A stretch of 21,263 nucleotides of DNA. It comes from a virus. The DNA lies in the IMG/VR virus record IMGVR_UViG_3300005664_000125, positions 1-21,263 of that record; one strand, given 5' to 3'. Both the position numbers and the translations under genes were made by a program. Positions 1-21,263 of this stretch are shown in pieces; position 1 is the first letter of the stretch, and every line of letters starts with the position of its first letter. The notes under the pieces were generated by a model. That model saw nothing but the letters and a program-made list of their open reading frames with translations. It searched no databases and was not told the origin of the DNA.

Positions 1-3580
<3,580 letters not shown>

Positions 3581-3609
<29 letters not shown>

Positions 3610-4447: not shown

Positions 4448-4723
4448 ATGGAAACCAAGTTCGATCCGAAGTTCATCGCCGCCTTCGCGGTCGGGCTCTC
4501 GCTCGCGGGGCTCGCCTACATGGCGGCGATCACGTTCCTGCCGATCCCGAAGGACAACATTCGCTTCGCCGACACGATCTTGGGCTTCATCATCGGCACG
4601 GTGGTCGCCGCACCGATCGGGTTCTTCTTCGGGTCGAGCAGCTCCAGCCGCGCGAAGGATCAGACCATCAACGACATGATGCCTACTTCACCAGATACGC
4701 CGACCCCATCGGATTCTCGATGA
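4448..4723 (+). CDS. Two-TM small membrane protein, holin-like
   Basis: This 91-aa protein is preceded by an AAAGGA ribosome site about 9 bases before the ATG. It has two hydrophobic segments: residues about 10-32 (IAAFAVGLSLAGLAYMAAIT) and about 43-61 (ILGFIIGTVVAAPIGFFFG). A Ser-rich, polar tail follows (SSSSSRAKDQ and SPDTPTPSDSR). Two membrane helices, small size and a charged tail resemble class II holins, but no endolysin is visible nearby, so holin is a guess from topology. Its last 41 bases overlap the 3' end of the convergent methyltransferase gene on the other strand. Confidence 0.7.
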   Translation: METKFDPKFIAAFAVGLSLAGLAYMAAITFLPIPKDNIRFADTILGFIIGTVVAAPIGFFFGSSSSSRAKDQTINDMMPTSPDTPTPSDSR

Positions 4724-5360
4724 AGAGCGTCGGCGTGTAGTCGCGCAGGAACTCGTCGACCGCGATCTTCGCGCCGGGGAAGTTCCTGTAACCATAGTCG
4801 TCGAAGAAGATCGCGCCGCCCGTCATGAGGTGGGGGTACAGATGCCGCAACGAGGCAAGCGTCGGCTCGTACAGATCGACATCGATCATCGCGAACGAGA
4901 TCGAGCCCAAAGGCACGTCTTCGAACACATCGGGGATCCACCCCTTGTGCAGATCGACGAAGCCGAACGGCTCGACAAGCCGGCGCAGCCGATGGATGTC
5001 CGACGCGTAGTGCACGCGCTCGGCCTCGCGCTTCGCAGTCGTGTTGAACGTGTCGGAGCGGTCCTGCTCCTTGAACTCCGACAGGCCCTTGAACGAGTCG
5101 AAGACGTGCAGCCGGCCAGCACGTCCCTTCATCAGGTTAGCGATCAGCAGCGTCGAGTGACCGTGCCAGCAGCCGCACTCGACGACATCCAGAAGCGGGA
5201 ACCGTTTGACGGACTGCTCGACGAGTTGATGCAGAACGTAGTAGCGGAACTGCTTCGCATCGTTGTCGGGCTTGCCGCCCTGCGCCACGTCGATCGCTTT
5301 CCGGTAGAGCTTGCGGATCGGGTTGCCAGCAGCGAGCGAGTTGAGGACTGAAGGATTCAA
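4683..5360 (-). CDS. TylF/MycF-like SAM-dependent O-methyltransferase
   Basis: This is the last gene of the long minus-strand unit. I choose the TTG at 5360 because it makes a TTGA overlap with the preceding stop and has AAGGGG five bases upstream; GTG 5366 is the alternative. The 225-aa product has the SAM-binding loop ECGCWHGHS (residues 61-69). The strand-4 motif is MIDVDLYEPT (Asp160, Asp162) and is followed by FFDDYG (Asp187-Asp188). This pattern of acidic residues binds the metal in TylF/MycF-type macrocin and mycinamicin O-methyltransferases, which methylate sugar hydroxyls. Length fits the family. In a cluster with glycosyltransferases, a sugar O-methylation role is a reasonable inference. 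The acceptor is unknown. It overlaps the convergent membrane-protein gene by 41 bases. Confidence 0.85.
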   Translation of the reverse strand: MNPSVLNSLAAGNPIRKLYRKAIDVAQGGKPDNDAKQFRYYVLHQLVEQSVKRFPLLDVVECGCWHGHSTLLIANLMKGRAGRLHVFDSFKGLSEFKEQDRSDTFNTTAKREAERVHYASDIHRLRRLVEPFGFVDLHKGWIPDVFEDVPLGSISFAMIDVDLYEPTLASLRHLYPHLMTGGAIFFDDYGYRNFPGAKIAVDEFLRDYTPTLFIENPMGSAYLVK

Positions 5361-5641
5361 AACCACCCCTTCGCAACTTCGCCGCAGTGAACGCAGTACG
5401 GTCCGATCTCCTGACCGATGTGGAACACCTGACAGCCGCAGTCGCATTCCCACAGCTTCTCACCGCGCACAACGGGCGCGACGTAGTAGCCCTTGGTCGC
5501 GTGGCACTCCGGGCACTCCAGCTCGTGCGTGCCGACCGGCGCAACGGCGACCCATGAGTGATGGCAGACCATGCACGCGGCAGCGCCGCTCAAGTGCGGG
5601 GTGCGATCGAGCTTGGCCTGCTCCAGTGAGATCACGGTCAT
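5357..5641 (-). CDS. Double zinc-ribbon protein, unknown role
   Basis: This 94-aa protein starts at an ATGA overlap with the glycosyltransferase upstream. Cysteines sit in pairs: C23-x2-C26, C43-x2-C46, C66/C68/C70 and C83-x2-C86, which is enough for two treble or rubredoxin-like zinc ribbons. The intervening sequence (ELECPECHATKGYYVAP and ECDCGCQVFHIG) is typical of small phage zinc ribbons. No DNA-binding helix or catalytic motif is evident. Its place inside the sugar cassette may reflect a structural or accessory role in a complex, but this is only positional inference. Confidence 0.75.
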   Translation of the reverse strand: MTVISLEQAKLDRTPHLSGAAACMVCHHSWVAVAPVGTHELECPECHATKGYYVAPVVRGEKLWECDCGCQVFHIGQEIGPYCVHCGEVAKGWF

Positions 5642-6336
5642 GTCGGCAGCACCTTCCGCCACTCGTCGTCGAACGAGCCGCCCTGCCAGCCGGGCAGCCA
5701 AGGGCCCCCGAGGGTCATGTGCGCGATGCCGAGATTCTCGGGTCGGGGTTGCACGTCGACGAGCCAGTTCCACTCGGGGCCCAGCTCGCCGATCTCGCTG
5801 TCGTGCAGCCAGTAGAACGAGTGCAGATCGAGCGCGGACCGCTCGTTCACGTCGCGTAGGGTCAGTCTGCGGTGCGCCGAGTGGTAGCAGTTGAAGAGCA
5901 TCACGCTCGACCAGTTCTTCCGCGCGTAGGCGATCTGCTTCTGATCGACCATCTTGAACGACTCGGCCGGGGTGTAGGCGTGCTTGACCACCCACACGGC
6001 CTTGTCCGCCAGCTTGTCGTGCTTCAGCATCTCCCGGGGATCGCGCAGGAATACCACGTCGCAGTCGACGAACAGGGCGATCATGTCCTGACAGAGCATC
6101 GGCACGAGGAAGCGCGTGAACTTGAACTCGGTGCTGAAGGTCGCGTTCCCGGTCAGATCGTAGCCCTGCCCCCCGCGACGATCGAACGTGCGCCACATGA
6201 AGCCGTGGTCGCGCAGCTTCGGCAAATGCAGGAACTCGACGGGTGGCCGCTGCCCCTTCGAGACTTGAGACAGGCTCAAGTAGGCGGCACGCGCAGCTTG
6301 CGGCTCGCGCTCGTCGTAGCCGATGTAGATTTTCAT
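5638..6336 (-). CDS. GT8-like glycosyltransferase (GT-A fold, DxD)
   Basis: This 232-aa protein starts at an ATGA overlap with the FkbM gene, with AAGGTG upstream. It begins MKIYIGYDEREPQAARAA, a start common to phage and bacterial GT8-like transferases. It contains FKFTRFLVPML and then LFVDCDVVFLRDP, giving the metal and nucleotide-sugar binding DxD at Asp91-x-Asp93. A conserved Trp/Asn region (PEWNWLVDVQPRPENLGIAHM) near the C-terminus resembles the acceptor-site and HxxG-like end of GT8 proteins. The expected role is transfer of a sugar from a nucleotide donor. Donor and acceptor cannot be read from the sequence. It is co-transcribed with the methyltransferases. Confidence 0.82.
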   Translation of the reverse strand: MKIYIGYDEREPQAARAAYLSLSQVSKGQRPPVEFLHLPKLRDHGFMWRTFDRRGGQGYDLTGNATFSTEFKFTRFLVPMLCQDMIALFVDCDVVFLRDPREMLKHDKLADKAVWVVKHAYTPAESFKMVDQKQIAYARKNWSSVMLFNCYHSAHRRLTLRDVNERSALDLHSFYWLHDSEIGELGPEWNWLVDVQPRPENLGIAHMTLGGPWLPGWQGGSFDDEWRKVLPT

Positions 6337-7022
6337 GTCGGCACCTTCAGGATGTAGTCTCCACTGATCTCGCCCACGACCTTGTAGCCCAGGCCGATGA
6401 GGTATTTCACGGCACCCATCGGCTTCAAGCCGAATTTTTCCGCCATCGTTCGCTTCTGCTCGACGCAGACCACTGGCTGCCAGTGCTTGAGCGTGAACTC
6501 GGCGCCGCGCAGGATGAACTCTTCGTAGCCCTCGGCGTCGACCTTGATGAAGTCGACATCCTCGAAGCCGAAGCTGTCGAGCGTGCGCATCGGCACGGTG
6601 CCTTTGCCCTTCACCCACGAGTCGCCGCTGCTCGTCGGGTTCACGCGGATCGTCACCATGTCCTCGCGGTCCCCGAGAGCATGGTCCCACAGCCACACCC
6701 TAGCTAACTCTTCCGGGCCTGTCAGCAACCGAGACCCAGGCACATTTTTGAGAAAGCATTCCCGGTGCGCCGCTACCGGCTCGAAAGCCTGGATGCTTTG
6801 GAACCCCCATTCGGCGAAGTTGTAGCTCCACAGGCCGATGTGCGCGCCGCAGTCGATCATCGTGCGGCGGCGCTCCGGCGCGCAGTGCGACAGTGCGAGC
6901 TGCTGCTTCTTGCCCTGATACGCCGGCCGGTCGTTCAACATGACTCGGTTCTTGGGATCGGCGAGCCACTCGATCATGTGTTGCTCGCCATCGGGCCACC
7001 ACCAACGGTCAACGAACTTCAT
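6333..7022 (-). CDS. FkbM family SAM methyltransferase
   Basis: This 229-aa protein has an ATG in an ATGA overlap with the preceding stop and an AGGAG site upstream. The SAM-binding motif I is MIDCGAHIGLWS (residues about 55-66), with the acidic FEP at 80-82. The later segment DFIKVDAEGYEEFILRGA followed by a hydrophobic strand ending in CVEQ is the diagnostic FkbM pattern (IKxDxEGxE...vL.Ga...E). FkbM enzymes O-methylate polyketides and, very often, sugars in surface polysaccharide loci. Length is normal for the family. With the TylF-like enzyme two genes downstream, it suggests a multiply methylated glycan product. Confidence 0.9.
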   Translation of the reverse strand: MKFVDRWWWPDGEQHMIEWLADPKNRVMLNDRPAYQGKKQQLALSHCAPERRRTMIDCGAHIGLWSYNFAEWGFQSIQAFEPVAAHRECFLKNVPGSRLLTGPEELARVWLWDHALGDREDMVTIRVNPTSSGDSWVKGKGTVPMRTLDSFGFEDVDFIKVDAEGYEEFILRGAEFTLKHWQPVVCVEQKRTMAEKFGLKPMGAVKYLIGLGYKVVGEISGDYILKVPT

Positions 7023-7324
7023 GCGACTCTCCTGAGGGGGTAAAGGGCTTGCACTGCTGCCGCAGCCATCACTCGAAGCGAATAAGACACAGCCCGGGGT
7101 TCCGGCTTCCTGGGCGGAAGCTCTCGGCCGAGGATGTCGACACCGAGGATGACGTTCGGAGTCGGATCATGATCCCCAGTCTCCGTCATCCACCACACGA
7201 GAAGTTCGTCCGCGGCGAGCAAATCCTTGGGGTCCGGTAGCTCACGCCCCCGTTGCAAGGCCAAGTCGGCGATCAACGCCCATTGGGTCCGCGTGAGCCC
7301 GTAGAACCGATCCTCGGTATTCAC
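7019..7324 (-). CDS. Hypothetical phage protein (101 aa)
   Basis: The GTG start at 7324 overlaps the preceding stop (GTGA) and has AAGGAG about 8 bases upstream, so translation is well supported. The protein is soluble, with an N-terminal helical part (RTQWALIADLALQRGRELP) and a Trp pair (LLVWWMTETG). An Arg/Pro-rich stretch follows, then a C-terminal amphipathic helix. I recognise no domain. Both flanking junctions are overlapping, so it is locked into the same translational chain as the oxygenase and the FkbM enzyme. Confidence 0.7.
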   Translation of the reverse strand: MNTEDRFYGLTRTQWALIADLALQRGRELPDPKDLLAADELLVWWMTETGDHDPTPNVILGVDILGRELPPRKPEPRAVSYSLRVMAAAAVQALYPLRRVA

Positions 7325-8052
7325 GTCAGCATCTCCTTGAACAATTCCGCCTGGGACTTCGCACCGCAACCAGGGCACTCCCACGAGATCCCGATCGCGC
7401 CGCGACCGTAGACGACTTCGTGGCTCACAGTCTTCGCGTTGAAGAACCAGATCGCGCCGGGCGCCAACTCGACACGGTGCCGTGGCGTCGCGGCGCCCAG
7501 CGGACCGCCCGGCAGGGCTTGGCGCAGCGCGTAGCTCACGTCGATTGGCACGCCCGGCTTGCGCGACTTCTCGAAGAGGGCTTTCATCTGGCTTGGTGAG
7601 TCGCGCATCAGCATCGGCAGGTTCGGGCCGATGTTGTAGACCCGCGGCTCGGGCGAGACGTTGATGTACGCGGTCACGAGAGGCGCATCGTTGTGCGTGG
7701 TGTCGAAGTGCAGGGGCTCGGGGCCGGTAATCATCGGGCGCCACGAGATGCGCTCCATGATCGACTTGAAGCTGGGGTAGAGGGCCTTGAACAGCCGGGT
7801 CGCGTGCGCGGTCATGCGGCCGATCTGCTCCTGCACCTCGCGCTTCGGCACCCCTTCGTTGAAGGGTTCCTTGAAGGCGCGCTTCTTCTTGGACAGCGCG
7901 CCGTGCAGCACTCCGACATCGGCGTCCCACGGCACCTCGTCGATCACGAGCATCCGCGAGTTGATGAACACCTGCCCGGGGTGGACATCGGGGTGCCATA
8001 CCTGAACGATGTGGGGGCTCAAACCCCCGTCGAGGTGGACAACCGACTTCAC
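7321..8052 (-). CDS. 2-oxoglutarate/Fe(II) oxygenase-like protein
   Basis: The GTG start at 8052 overlaps the upstream stop (GTGA) and gives 243 aa. The metal-binding triad of the 2OG-Fe(II) fold is visible: LHFDTTH gives His115-x-Asp117, and TVSHEVVYGR gives His211, with Arg217 six residues on as the 2-oxoglutarate anchor. The intervening segment TAYINVSPEPRVYNIGPNL and the turn LAPGAIWFF fit the double-stranded beta-helix. These enzymes hydroxylate carbons; members that act on sugars (for example Kdo hydroxylase) and on nucleic-acid bases both exist. A C-terminal CPGC pair is an odd addition. Its setting among glycosyltransferases favours a sugar or lipid substrate, but this is inference. 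Confidence 0.72.
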   Translation of the reverse strand: MKSVVHLDGGLSPHIVQVWHPDVHPGQVFINSRMLVIDEVPWDADVGVLHGALSKKKRAFKEPFNEGVPKREVQEQIGRMTAHATRLFKALYPSFKSIMERISWRPMITGPEPLHFDTTHNDAPLVTAYINVSPEPRVYNIGPNLPMLMRDSPSQMKALFEKSRKPGVPIDVSYALRQALPGGPLGAATPRHRVELAPGAIWFFNAKTVSHEVVYGRGAIGISWECPGCGAKSQAELFKEMLT

Positions 8053-8558
8053 GGCTTCCTCGCCCACCAGAGCCGGCCGTTGGCGAGCAGCTCGTGCTTC
8101 GGCAGCAGCCGGCGCACACCCTCGGCCACCTCGGGGATCTCGTAGTTGTCCCCCGACATGACGCAGCCGGTCTTGACCTTCGGCAGCCACAGGCTGATGT
8201 CGGTCATGATGCCCTTGAGCGAGTGGTCGCCATCCGTGTGCCAGAAGTCGATCGATTCGTCTTCGAACAGCGGCACGGCTTCATTCGACCGCATCCAGTG
8301 GACCGTGACCTTGGGTTGCGGGCGGGCCCACTGAAGCACCTGTTGCCGGATGCCGTCCATGTGCTTCTGATCGAAGTTGCAGTAGCCGCCTTCCCACGAG
8401 TCGACGATGTACTGCTTCTCGATCGAGGGGATCGTCGCGAACAGTTGCGACAGCGCACCAGCGTAGACGCCCACCTCGACGAGCACCTTCGGGTTGACGG
8501 ACGCGGCGAGCTTGCGTGTCGCCTCACGGTAGGTCGCAGCGTTGCAGGGCTTACCCAT
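8049..8558 (-). CDS. Class I SAM methyltransferase (Methyltransf_24-like)
   Basis: This 169-aa protein has its ATG 8 bases inside the end of the GT9-like gene and a good AAGGAG site. Motif I is VEVGVYAG (residues 27-34). DFWHTDGDHSLKGIMTDI (about 104-121) is the strand-4 motif with the Asp/His pair characteristic of Methyltransf_24-type enzymes found in glycan and rhamnose-modifying loci. GCVMSGDNY follows as the next strand. Family members methylate hydroxyls of sugars or small metabolites. It is one of five methyltransferases in this cassette and is not closely similar by eye to the other four, suggesting different target positions. Confidence 0.82.
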   Translation of the reverse strand: MGKPCNAATYREATRKLAASVNPKVLVEVGVYAGALSQLFATIPSIEKQYIVDSWEGGYCNFDQKHMDGIRQQVLQWARPQPKVTVHWMRSNEAVPLFEDESIDFWHTDGDHSLKGIMTDISLWLPKVKTGCVMSGDNYEIPEVAEGVRRLLPKHELLANGRLWWARKP

Positions 8559-9309
8559 TCAGGATCTCCTTCAGGTTGTCCAGCACCATCGCTGGGGTGA
8601 TTGCCAAGAGTGACTGCCGGCAGCCCTCGCAGTCCACGCGCCGGCCGCAGGGCTTGCCCGCACGGCGCAGGTTGCGCATGGCCGGGTAGCCGGTGATGTC
8701 CGGGCTGATGTACTCGCTCCAGATGATGACCGCTGGCGTGCCCACGGCAGCCGCGGCATGCATCATCCCACCTTCGGTGCCGACGAAGGCCTTGCAGACC
8801 GCCAAGACGGCTGCAGCGAGCCGGAACGTGTCGGTCTGCACGAACTTGGTGTAGAGCAGCGGGCGCGTGCCGGCGGGCCCGCACTGCACGGTCGGGATCC
8901 GCTGCCCGTGGATCAGGCAATCGAGCTGCGACCAGTAGAGCGGCCCCCAGTCCTTGTTCCGGTGGCCGATGTCCTTCACCGAGGGCTCAAGCATCACCAT
9001 GCCTCGGAAGGGCTCTGCGAAGGCCTTCTCCGCAGCCGTGAAGACGATCTCGGCCGGGATCGGCTTGTAGGGGCGCCACGTCCACTTCTCGGGGCTCTTG
9101 GCCGCGATGTAGGGCCGATGCCCGCCGCAGTTCAACAGGCGCGTGAAGGGCCGGCCGGCAGCGCGCGCCTGCATGATGTAGGGCACCCCGTCCCACACCG
9201 GGTTCTTGATCGGTCGACCACGTGGGTCGACGATCATGACCGGCAGCTTGTTCGACTTGTGCAGCTTGCGGGCTTCGCCTGCAGCTAAAAGCGCGTCACC
9301 GATGCCCAC
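8551..9309 (-). CDS. GT9/heptosyltransferase-like glycosyltransferase
   Basis: The start is the GTG in a TAGTG one-base overlap with the preceding stop, with GTGGAG upstream. The 252-aa product opens VGIGDALLAAGEARKL, matching the glycine-rich GxGD start of GT9 enzymes. The C-terminal Rossmann half shows VMLEPSVKDIGHRNKDWG and then VGTEGGMMHAAAAVGTP (from about residue 176), the nucleotide-sugar binding motif of heptosyltransferases (D/E-GG-xHxAAAxGxP). A Cys-rich turn, PCGRRVDCEGC, is also typical of phage and bacterial GT9-like proteins. It is shorter than LPS heptosyltransferases (about 320-350 aa), so the N-domain is reduced. It probably transfers a heptose or other sugar. Confidence 0.82.
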   Translation of the reverse strand: MGIGDALLAAGEARKLHKSNKLPVMIVDPRGRPIKNPVWDGVPYIMQARAAGRPFTRLLNCGGHRPYIAAKSPEKWTWRPYKPIPAEIVFTAAEKAFAEPFRGMVMLEPSVKDIGHRNKDWGPLYWSQLDCLIHGQRIPTVQCGPAGTRPLLYTKFVQTDTFRLAAAVLAVCKAFVGTEGGMMHAAAAVGTPAVIIWSEYISPDITGYPAMRNLRRAGKPCGRRVDCEGCRQSLLAITPAMVLDNLKEILNG

Positions 9310-9815
9310 TACGGTGTCTCCACGAGCTGAAAGTCGACAGCCCCGGCAAGACGCTTGAAGCGCCCGTGCCACCACTCGATCCCTTGGATCGTGACGTGCA
9401 GGTTCGTGCCGTCAGGGAAGGTCTTCTTCGCCGGCCGGCAGCACACGCTCGCCCACACCACCTTCCTCGCGTGGTTGAACAGGTCGGCGATGAAGGGGTC
9501 CACGTCATCCTCGGGGATGTGCTCCAGCACGTCGCTGCACAGCACGGCGTCGAACCGGCGCGGGGGCAGGATCTCGTGCTTCTTGAAGGCTGGGTCGTAG
9601 AGGGCCACGTCCGGGCGCTTCAGGCCCCACTGCCGGTAGACCTTGTGCGGGGAGTGGTAGGCGTCGCCCCGGCCGCAGCCGTAGTCCAGCAGCGTGCGGG
9701 CGCGGTGCGCGCGCAGCAGCCGGCCGATCGCGTCGGAGTGCTTGAGGATGCTCAAGCCTTGGAAGTTGTCGCCGGCCTCGGCCATCTCACGGTAGAGGGG
9801 GATCAGGCTACTCAT
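9309..9815 (-). CDS. Class I SAM methyltransferase
   Basis: The start is the ATG of a TGATG overlap with the upstream stop, giving 168 aa. Motif I is TLLDYGCGRG (residues 41-50), the acidic strand end is ALYDPAF, and the post-motif segment is FDAVLCSDVLEHIPEDD (about 88-104). All are standard for class I methyltransferases of the Methyltransf_11/25 type. The short C-terminal half (WASVCCRPAKK, LHVTIQGIEWWHGRF) holds an aromatic region that may bind the acceptor. Similar genes recur in phage and polysaccharide loci. The substrate is unknown. Confidence 0.85.
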   Translation of the reverse strand: MSSLIPLYREMAEAGDNFQGLSILKHSDAIGRLLRAHRARTLLDYGCGRGDAYHSPHKVYRQWGLKRPDVALYDPAFKKHEILPPRRFDAVLCSDVLEHIPEDDVDPFIADLFNHARKVVWASVCCRPAKKTFPDGTNLHVTIQGIEWWHGRFKRLAGAVDFQLVETP

Positions 9816-17499: not shown

Positions 17500-19704
17500 T
17501 CACCCCTTCCTGTTCCGCAAAGCCTCGAAGCCCTTCGCCGCAAGCGGCAGGCCCCGGTTCCAACCCAGGTCCGCGCACATCAGCTCGCCGAGTCGGGTCG
17601 CGGACAGATCATCGCGATCGGCCGGCGCCTCGGTCAAGTAGGCATCGTGTTCGGACAGGATGATCTCGAAGCCGGCTGCCTCGATCGCTTCTCCGGTCTC
17701 CAGCAGTTGATCGCAGGCTGCGGCCTGGGTCGCGTTCTCGAAGAGCTTGCCACCGTAGGTGCCGATGCGCTGCCACTTCCGGGTATATTGCGAAAGGCCC
17801 ATGTAGCTGATGCCCGGAAACCCCTTCGCGTCGATCCTGGGGTGCGGGTAGCACAGCGCGCGACCGCTGGGCAGCCCGATGCGCAGCCACTCGCCGTCGC
17901 GGCGGATCTTGAGCCGGCGGCACGCGAACTGCTCGCCGGGCACGAGGATCGCCTGGGAGACCGTGTTCTCGATCTGCTTCCAGTACCCGCTGATCTCGGG
18001 GTGCGCGCGGCGCCACAGCCTCTTGATCGCGTCACAAGCAATGAACGTGCGCTCGGGCAGCCCGAGGCGGGCTTTCAGCTTGCGGGCTTCGCGCTTGACG
18101 GCTGCCGCGTCGAGCAGCGCGTTCGCTTCCTCGGTTGGGATTTCCCCTTGCTGAACTTGATCGCCGGTCTTCTGAAGGACTTCCTGATACCGGCCTTCCG
18201 CCGGCTCATACAACCACTGCAGGAAGCTCTCGGCCTCGATCTTCGCCCACTCGGGCAGTGTGCCCCATACCTGCGTGGTCATCTTGTCGAGATCGATGCC
18301 GTAGGTGGCAGCTCCGGTGATCCACGCACCGACGCCGCCCCCGTACTGGAACATCAACTCTTCGACCTTGCCGATCTGACGCTCGGTGCCGTCGAGCGGC
18401 ACGCTCTCGGGCGGCACGTTGAAGCTCTTGGAGTAGGCGACGATGTAGAGATCGTGACCCTCGCCCGCGTCGAACGCTTCGAACGCGCGCAGCTTCCATT
18501 CCTCGCCGGCCAGCCACGCAGCCTTCCGGCCCTCGATGTTGGACAAGTCAGCGGCCACTAACTTCTTGCCCGGTGGCGCGATGATGGTGCTGCGGATCGC
18601 GTTGGAGCACACGCGCATGACGTTGGGGAAGACGAGGTGCGCAGCGTCGAGCTTGAGCAGCTCGATCCCCCACATGATCTCGTCGGCCTTCATGTCGGGC
18701 CGGGGCATGTTGCCCGACTGGAAGAGCCGATGCGCTACGCGGCCGGTGCGCCTGGCGCCGCGGAACTGCATGGTGCCGCGCAGGCGCCCGTCGCTGTTCA
18801 CCCCACGCAGCAGGGTGCTGTACTTGGCGACGCTCGTGGTCACGCTCTCCAGCCGCACACGCAGCAGCTCGCGCAACTCATCGGGCAGATCGGGATCCTC
18901 GATGCGCCGCTCGATGGTGTCAGCTTGCATGTCGGGCAAGTCGACCCCGTAGGCTTCGAGGATGTAGCGCAGCATCTCGTCGCGCTGCGTGGCCGACGCC
19001 ACGGCATCGCCCGTCATCGCCTGGGTGCGCTTCGCAAGGCCCTTCTTGGCCTTCTCGCTCGCGCGCACGGCTGCCTCGGCCAGCTCGATGTCCATGAACA
19101 TGCCACGGTTGTTGATGCGCTGATCGAGGAACCACAGGTCGAGCTGCTTGCCTTTGTAGTTCCACATCGGCATGCGCTTGTGCGCCTCGCGCATGGCAGT
19201 GATGTCCTGCTTCGCGTAGTCCTTGAACTCTTCCCACTTCTCGGGGTGCGTCAGGCGCGTGTTGCGGCTGCCGTTGGCCTGCGGCATGCAGAAGAGCCGG
19301 ATCAACGCGCGGCCGGTCTTGAGCTTGCGCTTGTCCTGCTCGATGCCGAGGGCGTCGGCCATCATCTCAAGGTTGCCCGGCAGGCTGTGGCTGTAGGCCT
19401 GGATCATCGTGTCGCGTCGCCGGGCCTGGGGCACGGCTTCGGCGAGCCACGGCAGTGCCTTCGTGAAGACCGGCCAGTCGAACTTGTCGCCGTTCTGGAG
19501 CCACACGAGAGTGTCGGGGTCGGAAATCGCGTCGGCGAGTCGCAGGGGTAACGGCTCGGCTGCAGTCAGGTCCCACTCCCCCACCGGCCCATCATCGATC
19601 GCCCAGGTGATGAGCATCACCTCCGCGCGCTCGGCGTAGCGATACGTCCCGTGCTTGATCGGGATGTCGCAGAACGTCTCGCAGTCGAGGAACAGATCAG
19701 GCAT
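17500..19704 (-). CDS. Family A DNA polymerase with 3'-5' exonuclease
   Basis: This 734-aa protein is complete. The exonuclease domain has FLDCET (Asp7-x-Glu9), QNGDKFDWPVF (Asp76) and YAKQD (Tyr163, Asp167), so proofreading residues are intact. The polymerase domain has RRTGR (319 on), motif A AADLSNIEGR (Asp386), motif B RQIGKVEELMFQYGGG (Arg442, Lys446, Tyr454) and motif C SEHDAYLTE with the catalytic Asp687. The usual Glu after this Asp (HDE) is Ala here (HDA). It belongs to the phage PolA-like group found with DUF2800, DUF2815, VRR-NUC and SNF2 genes. Its ATG has no clear ribosome site and follows an 88-base leader full of hairpins. Confidence 0.95.
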   Translation of the reverse strand: MPDLFLDCETFCDIPIKHGTYRYAERAEVMLITWAIDDGPVGEWDLTAAEPLPLRLADAISDPDTLVWLQNGDKFDWPVFTKALPWLAEAVPQARRRDTMIQAYSHSLPGNLEMMADALGIEQDKRKLKTGRALIRLFCMPQANGSRNTRLTHPEKWEEFKDYAKQDITAMREAHKRMPMWNYKGKQLDLWFLDQRINNRGMFMDIELAEAAVRASEKAKKGLAKRTQAMTGDAVASATQRDEMLRYILEAYGVDLPDMQADTIERRIEDPDLPDELRELLRVRLESVTTSVAKYSTLLRGVNSDGRLRGTMQFRGARRTGRVAHRLFQSGNMPRPDMKADEIMWGIELLKLDAAHLVFPNVMRVCSNAIRSTIIAPPGKKLVAADLSNIEGRKAAWLAGEEWKLRAFEAFDAGEGHDLYIVAYSKSFNVPPESVPLDGTERQIGKVEELMFQYGGGVGAWITGAATYGIDLDKMTTQVWGTLPEWAKIEAESFLQWLYEPAEGRYQEVLQKTGDQVQQGEIPTEEANALLDAAAVKREARKLKARLGLPERTFIACDAIKRLWRRAHPEISGYWKQIENTVSQAILVPGEQFACRRLKIRRDGEWLRIGLPSGRALCYPHPRIDAKGFPGISYMGLSQYTRKWQRIGTYGGKLFENATQAAACDQLLETGEAIEAAGFEIILSEHDAYLTEAPADRDDLSATRLGELMCADLGWNRGLPLAAKGFEALRNRKG

Positions 19705-19792: not shown

Positions 19793-20395
19793 TCACGTCA
19801 GGTCTTCGGCGTCCGAGCCCTCGGTGATCTCTTCGAACGCGTCCGGATCCGGCGCAACACCACCGCTGAACGCGTCGCCGTCGCGCTGGCGTTGGATGCC
19901 GAGCAGGGTGGCGCGCACGGCCTTGCCGTTGTTGTTGTCCTGGCACCAGAACTCGATCTGCATGTTGACGTAGCAGCCCGAGTAGATGCGCCCGGCCTTG
20001 CCCTCGTACAGTTCATTCGAGGGCTTGTAGATCGGCGACTTGTCGCTGTCGTAGACCAGGGGGCGCCCCTTGTCCTCGTTGCGGTGCGCGGTGAGGGCCC
20101 AGTGCCCGGCGTAGCCCTCGTAGTCCTTGCGCTTGCCGTCGACGAAGCAGCAGGCCTTCGGGTCGGCGCGCACGTTCTCCATGACCGACTGCCACTTCTT
20201 CTCCCACTTCTCCTTCGCCATCGCATCGATCATCTCGTCGATCTGCTTGCGCAGCGGCGAGCCGGCCGGGATCAGCGCGGTCGCCGACCAGCGGCGCTTG
20301 TCGGTGGGCTTGGTCTTCTGCCCCCCGTAATACTCCGGTTCACCGAGCGTGATGAAGCTGCAGCGAACGTCTTTCAGCAACAGTGTGGTTCCCAC
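19793..20395 (-). CDS. DUF2815 family, ssDNA-binding-like replication protein
   Basis: This 200-aa protein starts at GTG 20395 with AAAGGAAAG just upstream; no ATG is near. The N-terminus TTLLLKDVRCSFITLGEPEY and the following KRRWSATALIPAG match DUF2815. The middle (AGHWALTAHRNEDKGRPLVY, then GRIYSGCYVNMQIEFW) forms the expected OB-like barrel strands. The last 18 residues are strongly acidic (EEITEGSDAEDLT), as in phage ssDNA-binding proteins that recruit partners through an acidic tail. DUF2815 proteins lie directly upstream of PolA-like phage polymerases, as here. A single-strand-binding role is the accepted guess and is not proven by sequence. Confidence 0.88.
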   Translation of the reverse strand: MGTTLLLKDVRCSFITLGEPEYYGGQKTKPTDKRRWSATALIPAGSPLRKQIDEMIDAMAKEKWEKKWQSVMENVRADPKACCFVDGKRKDYEGYAGHWALTAHRNEDKGRPLVYDSDKSPIYKPSNELYEGKAGRIYSGCYVNMQIEFWCQDNNNGKAVRATLLGIQRQRDGDAFSGGVAPDPDAFEEITEGSDAEDLT

Positions 20396-20455: not shown

Positions 20456-20731
20456 TTAGAACGTGGTCGGCTGCGCGATGCCTCGGATCACAGCCATGAA
20501 TCCCTGCTGCAGTTGTGTGGCGCCGATGCTGATCCACCGCTGATCGAGCGATGGCGCCCCCACGAGTAGCGTGTCACCTTGCTGGGCGCCGGTTTTGCTG
20601 GGGTGCTGTCGCAGCTTCTCGATGAACGCGCCGCAGGCCCCGGCGAGTGCCTTGCCCTCGTTCATCAACTCGACTTCGGCTTCGCTCAGTTGGCGATAGC
20701 CCGTGACCTTGGGTTGAATCATCGTTTCCAT
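20456..20731 (-). CDS. Acb2/Tad1-like cyclic-nucleotide sponge (anti-CBASS/anti-Thoeris)
   Basis: I start at ATG 20731, which follows AAAGGAACC at good spacing, giving 91 aa; Acb2 proteins are about 90-95 aa. The N-terminus KVTGYRQLSEAEVELMNEGK and the C-terminus RWISIGATQLQQGFMAVIRG followed by IAQPTTF match the Acb2/Tad1 hairpin family (GYRxLs...LMNexK, then RWxxIxxTxLQxGFMaxxRxxAQPt). Known members form oligomers that sequester cyclic di- and trinucleotides or TIR-derived cADPR signals, silencing CBASS and Thoeris. Tyr12 and Lys27 here have the same 15-residue spacing as Tyr11 and Lys26, which I recall as ligand-contacting in PaMx33 Acb2. It lies inside the early replication module, where a counter-defence protein would be made promptly. 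Ligand range is unknown. Confidence 0.8.
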   Translation of the reverse strand: METMIQPKVTGYRQLSEAEVELMNEGKALAGACGAFIEKLRQHPSKTGAQQGDTLLVGAPSLDQRWISIGATQLQQGFMAVIRGIAQPTTF

Positions 20732-20742
20732 CTTGGTTCCTT

Positions 20743-21263
20743 TCACCAGAGTTGCTCTTCATCTACCACCCCGAACGCCGAGTCGTCAGGCGCGGCGATC
20801 AGGTAGGGGGTCTTGATCTGCGCCTTCGGCTTGACGCTGGGCACGGCCGGGCTGCGCTCGATCATGTCCTGCATCTTCTTCCATTGGCGTGGCGACAGCA
20901 CTGGCTCGGGGTTCAGCTTGGTGGCCTTCGCGAGCTTCTCCGCGGTCGTCGGGCTGATGAGTTTCAGATCATAGGTCTGTTCGATCTTGATCCGCGCGGT
21001 CTTGCGCAGGTAGGCCTCGGCAGCCTTGGGATCCTTCCACTTGCGCGGCCCCTCGCGGCCCAGCTCAAGGCCGAAGCCGTCGATCTCCTGCCCGAGCAAC
21101 ATGCGGCGCTCGACTTCCGCGCGCACAGCCTTGGCGAAGTCCTCCAGCATCGGCGCGACGCGCATCGCGAGTGCGAGCTTGTCGTCGGCCAGCGTGGTCG
21201 GGGCAGGGATGCCCGCGGCTGCCTCGACGACTTCGAAGTTCGCGCCGATGCCGGCCTCCAGCC
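20743..21263 (-). CDS. DUF2800 family protein (Cas4/RecB-like nuclease), C-terminal part
   Basis: The frame is open to the right edge, so the N-terminal nuclease core lies outside; 172 residues are visible. The conserved C-terminal block is clear: GFGLELGREGPRKWKDPKAA, then YDLKLISPTTAEKL and the later LSPRQWKKMQDMIERSPAVP. In DUF2800 proteins this follows a PD-(D/E)xK fold and ends with a linker. The last 40 residues here are a poorly conserved tail. DUF2800 is the standard first gene before DUF2815 and PolA in such phage modules. The stop lies 11 bases before the Acb2-like ATG, so the two are co-expressed. Confidence 0.85.
   Translation of the reverse strand, partial: LEAGIGANFEVVEAAAGIPAPTTLADDKLALAMRVAPMLEDFAKAVRAEVERRMLLGQEIDGFGLELGREGPRKWKDPKAAEAYLRKTARIKIEQTYDLKLISPTTAEKLAKATKLNPEPVLSPRQWKKMQDMIERSPAVPSVKPKAQIKTPYLIAAPDDSAFGVVDEEQLW

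Follow-up and report, generated by a model that had tools for sequence, protein, structure and literature searches.

A predicted Acb2-type cyclic-nucleotide sponge encoded within a BPP-1-like phage replication module

Introduction

Sequestration of CBASS signals is well studied in the Acb2 family of phage proteins (PMC10419184, PMC11722364, PMC12657218), and the mechanism on which we draw below is described in PMC12043709, PMC10419184, and PMC11722364. In Acb2, two long helices follow a short N-terminal one, and cyclic dinucleotides are bound at a different site from cyclic trinucleotides (PMC12043709). The Panoptes operon is triggered by T4 Acb2 (PMC12657218). Tad1 bears a beta sheet at its N terminus, and gcADPR binds in a pocket composed of loops and tail from one protomer and helices from the other (PMC12043709); the same review names Tad1 and Tad2, but not Acb2, as gcADPR binders. 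Here, we analyze a viral contig of 21,263 nucleotides (IMG/VR record IMGVR_UViG_3300005664_000125; the whole of this stretch is referred to as the window), one small gene of which had been predicted to encode an Acb2/Tad1-like anti-CBASS or anti-Thoeris sponge embedded in the replication module.

The acb2 gene and its neighborhood

Read directly from the window, the acb2 ORF is intact, running from an ATG at 20731 to a TAA at 20458-20456 and encoding 91 residues, METMIQPKVTGYRQLSEAEVELMNEGKALAGACGAFIEKLRQHPSKTGAQQGDTLLVGAPSLDQRWISIGATQLQQGFMAVIRGIAQPTTF. The features of the gene and its flanks are as follows.

20743..21263, minus strand: DUF2800/PHROG 69 exonuclease, C-terminal part, which runs off the window edge with its frame open to the edge (PF10926, E = 1.1e-11; PHROG 69, E = 1.3e-17)
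20738..20743, minus strand: Shine-Dalgarno-like AAAGGA, read in the sequence, overlapping the exonuclease stop at 20743-20745
20456..20731, minus strand: acb2, predicted Acb2-type cyclic-nucleotide sponge, 91 aa (PF24729, 8h2j, AlphaFold2 hairpin)
20651..20701, minus strand: N block GYRQLSEAEVELMNEGK, residues 11-27, including two predicted dinucleotide-pocket residues, Tyr12 and Lys27
20549..20605, minus strand: hypervariable hairpin tip, residues 43-61, recognized by length and alignability across relatives
20459..20548, minus strand: C block LDQRWISIGATQLQQGFMAVIRGIAQPTTF, residues 62-91, containing residues invariant in 54 relatives
19793..20395, minus strand: Enc34-type (former DUF2815) ssDNA-binding protein, SSB (PF10991, E = 8e-28; PHROG 112, E = 6e-35)
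17500..19704, minus strand: family A DNA polymerase of a BPP-1-like module (PHROG 17, E = 3e-96; 53% identity to the Bordetella phage BPP-1 polymerase)

The minus-strand order is thus DUF2800 exonuclease, acb2, Enc34-type SSB, PolA, a VRR-type nuclease ORF (named after the homologous ORF of the module and not from a Pfam match), and an SNF2-type helicase. Pfam matches bear out the predicted flanking of acb2 by DUF2800 (PF10926) and DUF2815, the latter now PF10991 (Enc34). The polymerase shares 53% identity with its BPP-1 counterpart and 51% with that of Burkholderia phage BcepC6B. Since the four closest acb2 relatives in bacterial genomes belong to betaproteobacterial MAGs, a betaproteobacterial host is likely.

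The AAAGGA motif lies six bases 5′ of the ATG at 20731, itself 11 bases past the exonuclease stop, and the overlap of motif and stop suggests that acb2 is coupled to the upstream exonuclease gene. An alternative GTG start at 20746 would add five residues; we prefer the ATG because of the Shine-Dalgarno-like motif six bases upstream of it. No sigma-70-like promoter was found around acb2, and shuffled sequence yields as many terminator-like sites as the one found near the gene. Because this search gave nothing above background, it is operon position that points to early expression, which we consider plausible by analogy.

Two further regions of the contig drew our attention. A run of TylF, FkbM, and Methyltransf_24 methyltransferases with a glycosyltransferase family 9 match occupies 4683-9375 (minus strand), from which similar-looking ORFs extend to about 12546; these methyl- and sugar-transfer genes may serve to modify glycans or the virion. 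At the opposite end of the contig from acb2, and on the other strand, lies a 1,183-codon open frame with no Pfam match (58-3606, plus strand).

Family membership and predicted fold

A Pfam search of the 91-aa protein matched the whole PF24729 (Acb2/Tad1 hairpin) profile at E = 9.3e-15 and 55 bits, against a curated cut-off of 27 bits, confirming the predicted family membership; the profile occupies residues 11-87. PHROG 717 was matched as well (E = 2e-17). Among solved structures, the sole good sequence match was Acb2 of Pseudomonas phage PaP2 (8h2j and 8ixz, E = 2.7e-11, phmmer against PDB sequences). A profile built from 54 aligned sequences (the window protein plus 53 relatives from viral contigs) and searched against solved structures found 8h2j at 1.2e-28 and T4 Vs.4 at 7e-4, and Tad1 was absent from its results. 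NCBIfam had no model and PADLOC no match for the protein, and the family search matched 0 of 14 control genomes. Both motif blocks quoted in the original prediction are present (GYRQLSEAEVELMNEGK, residues 11-27, and RWISIGATQLQQGFMAVIRGIAQPTTF, residues 65-91), as are the family-typical length (91 aa versus 93 aa in PaP2 Acb2) and the Tyr/Lys spacing, with 15 residues from Tyr12 to Lys27 as from Tyr11 to Lys26 in PaP2 Acb2. The window gene is therefore confirmed as a genuine acb2, one more member of a known family and not new in kind.

The predicted fold agrees. An AlphaFold2 monomer, built from the 54-sequence alignment with a mean pLDDT of 82.7, contains the paired-helix hairpin expected of the family; its long helices (17-41 and 64-86) are accompanied by no beta strand of three residues or longer. 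When this model was searched against the PDB with Foldseek, Acb2 chains ranked first (8h2x, E = 4e-4, probability 1.00), followed by Vs.4 (probability 0.84); beyond these nothing convincing appeared among the matches listed, and no Tad1 was present among the 50. The match to Acb2 is a monomer comparison with a moderate TM-score of 0.66 and an rmsd of 5. Sequence and predicted fold together support the nucleotide-sponge reading.

Like Acb2, the window protein stands alone, falls within ~75 to 95 aa, and has a short N-terminal segment ahead of two long antiparallel helices. Only 10 residues precede the hairpin, which begins at residue 11, leaving no room for the N-terminal beta-sheet domain of Tad1, and the model has no strands; we therefore conclude that the protein is Acb2-type, not Tad1-type. 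The anti-Thoeris half of the prediction does not fare as well as the anti-CBASS half, since the hairpin fills residues 11-87 of 91 as two helices without a beta sheet and the structure searches gave no Tad1 among the matches listed, and anti-Thoeris action is disfavored. Although the PF24729 hairpin domain is common to Tad1 by Pfam family definition, we think it very improbable that the main action of the protein is anti-Thoeris, through gcADPR sequestration as in Tad1, given the 10 residues ahead of the hairpin, the lack of any strand of at least three residues, sequence and fold searches that give Acb2 and Vs.4 but no Tad1 (for Foldseek, among the matches listed), and the assignment of an N-terminal beta sheet to Tad1 and of gcADPR binding to Tad1/Tad2 and not Acb2 (PMC12043709).

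Conserved residues and proposed function

Across the 54 aligned relatives, G11, Y12, R13, N24, and K27 are at least 90% conserved, and R65, W66, T72, Q75, G77, M79, R83, P88, and F91 are invariant. In the alignment with PaP2 Acb2 (8h2j), the counterparts of Tyr12 and Lys27 are Tyr11 and Lys26, which we take to be ligand-pocket residues, and that of Arg65 is Arg67, presumably part of the trinucleotide site; the counterpart of Arg65 is absent from T4 Vs.4. From these correspondences we infer that dinucleotides as well as trinucleotides may be ligands of the window protein. Most of the identity to relatives falls within the two end blocks, where it persists although many codons differ synonymously (12 of 30 per block relative to L002), which indicates purifying selection.

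Some relatives depart from this pattern. Two Acb2-like proteins in the exonuclease/SSB slot (L083, 2313-2597, and L122, 5354-5683) keep the C block and have lost the GYR..K block, so that their ligand, if any, may differ, while in L081 (8001-8834) the acb2 domain is fused in frame to a further ~160 C-terminal residues without a Pfam match. Loss thus occurs in the family, as those two same-slot relatives attest, and the window protein might by extension be a sponge that has decayed or been repurposed and has lost its binding of CBASS signals. We give this little credence, since every conserved residue is present in the window copy and the centering of identity on the end blocks despite synonymous change speaks of purifying selection.

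We are instead highly confident that the window gene encodes an Acb2-type sponge whose likeliest role is to soak up, as a hexamer, the cyclic di- and trinucleotides of CBASS. By analogy with described Acb2 proteins, Acb2 would be produced together with the replication genes, and its helical hairpins would assemble as a homohexamer. The N-terminal GYR..K and C-terminal ends would then form inter-protomer pockets for CBASS cyclic dinucleotides, and a second, three-fold site would take cyclic trinucleotides. Sequestered uncut in this way, the signals would no longer lead CBASS effectors to kill infected cells. Hexamer formation, ligand binding, CBASS inhibition, and early expression are all expected of the window Acb2 on these grounds. 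Among 10 bacterial genomes holding acb2 relatives, one had a SMODS match and three had a ThsB match; at one in 10, CBASS co-occurrence lends no support to the sponge reading, and a lysogen or MAG need not show CBASS.

An accessory gene in a replication operon

Tight same-strand packing between exonuclease and SSB genes might suggest that the protein assists the exonuclease-SSB module in replication or recombination, perhaps as a partner of the ssDNA-annealing protein. A family member is also found in the same slot of six other contigs (L053, L055, L083, L086, L087, and L122). We collected modules with a polymerase profile and from related records, yielding 77 loci with both exonuclease and SSB genes; five more, found via acb2 itself, bring the full set to 82. 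The SSB as a viral-contig query returned no relatives. An acb2-like gene lies between exonuclease and SSB genes in only 4 of the 77 modules (L083, L086, L087, and L122). The gene is embedded in the replication module by position, as predicted, but a role in replication does not follow.

In most homologous modules acb2 would not fit, the gap between exonuclease and SSB ORFs being at most 60 bases in 61 of 82 loci. Elsewhere the slot is filled by unrelated small ORFs, such as a Gp49/66-family gene in L092, and in BPP-1 it holds a different small ORF. Related modules place acb2 between the SSB and polymerase genes (L067) or after the helicase gene (L069 and L070). The best acb2 matches (64 to 80% identity) occur in contigs without a nearby exonuclease or SSB homologue, some of them near other polymerase or helicase genes, and the immediate neighbors of the closest relatives are scattered across portal, head, repressor, dUTPase, and methyltransferase genes. 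Moreover, the polymerase of L083 is 67% identical to that of the window, while its same-slot Acb2-like protein is only 39% identical over 44 residues. This divergence, together with relatives in other slots and unrelated contexts, argues that acb2 moves independently of the module. On gene order and identity, then, we take acb2 to be an interchangeable accessory (mobile) gene and not a replication part, and we regard a replication function as a very slim prospect.

Relatives in other contexts include two pairs of adjacent sponge families: in L031 (7977-8717) and L048 (8001-9019), a Tad2-like (PF11195) gene lies directly downstream of acb2, an arrangement that fits counter-defense. Relatives annotated as hypothetical also occur in the head-gene clusters of Acinetobacter phage Ab9 (L180, 3974-4198) and Microcystis phage Mwe-JY05 (L179, 3983-4207), where they adjoin portal, protease, or head-tail adaptor genes.

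A hypervariable hairpin tip

The sole unusual feature of the window Acb2 is its hypervariable tip between conserved ends. Across relatives, the tip between the N and C blocks ranges from 3 to 43 aa and is barely alignable. Loci L086 and L087 offer the closest comparison, as their modules are nearly the same (exonuclease 89%, SSB 96%, and polymerase 94% identical). The ends of their acb2 genes (5222-5530 and 5438-5782, respectively) are 83% and 87% identical, with synonymous changes in 4 of 29 and 5 of 26 codons, whereas the tips, of 31 and 43 residues, are unrelated at 26% identity. Loop slack at a distance from the pockets explains this variation simply, and selection on the tip is possible. 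We consider it improbable that the tip is not mere slack but a swappable, fast-replaced element, one that may evade a sponge-recognizing host factor or tune partner choice or assembly apart from ligand binding. Closely related sponges with exchanged tips provide a set for testing its role.

Comparison with known systems

The nearest described protein is Acb2 of Pseudomonas phage PaP2 (8h2j, 8h2x, 8ixz, and 8j8o), which resembles the window protein in length (93 versus 91 aa) and hairpin fold and shares the GYR..N..K and RW..IG.T..Q.G.MA.IR.IAQP..F blocks, at ~33% identity in structural alignment. The two differ in the tip, which in the window protein is a few residues shorter and unrelated in sequence, and in genomic context, the BPP-1-like replication module of the window being unlike the surroundings of PaP2 acb2. 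T4 Vs.4 (T4 Acb2, 7uq2) has the hairpin domain and GY...K spacing in common with the window protein but is only 16 to 17% identical and lacks the whole RW pair that is invariant in the window family. The anti-Thoeris sponge Tad1 (CbTad1, 8smd) shares the PF24729 domain by Pfam definition; it differs in its N-terminal beta-sheet domain and gcADPR binding, and the window protein has neither that domain nor a Tad1 match. The modules of BPP-1 and BcepC6B match that of the window in gene order (exonuclease, ssDNA-binding protein, PolA, VRR-type nuclease, and helicase), with PolA 51 to 53% identical, but these phages have no acb2 between the exonuclease and SSB genes.

While the finding leaves the understanding of CBASS evasion unchanged, it aids annotation of a frequent "hypothetical protein" and assigns an Acb2-type sponge to the replication operon of a BPP-1-like phage. 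The comparison shows that acb2 moves from slot to slot among homologous exonuclease-SSB modules and also enters unrelated settings, head-gene regions among them.
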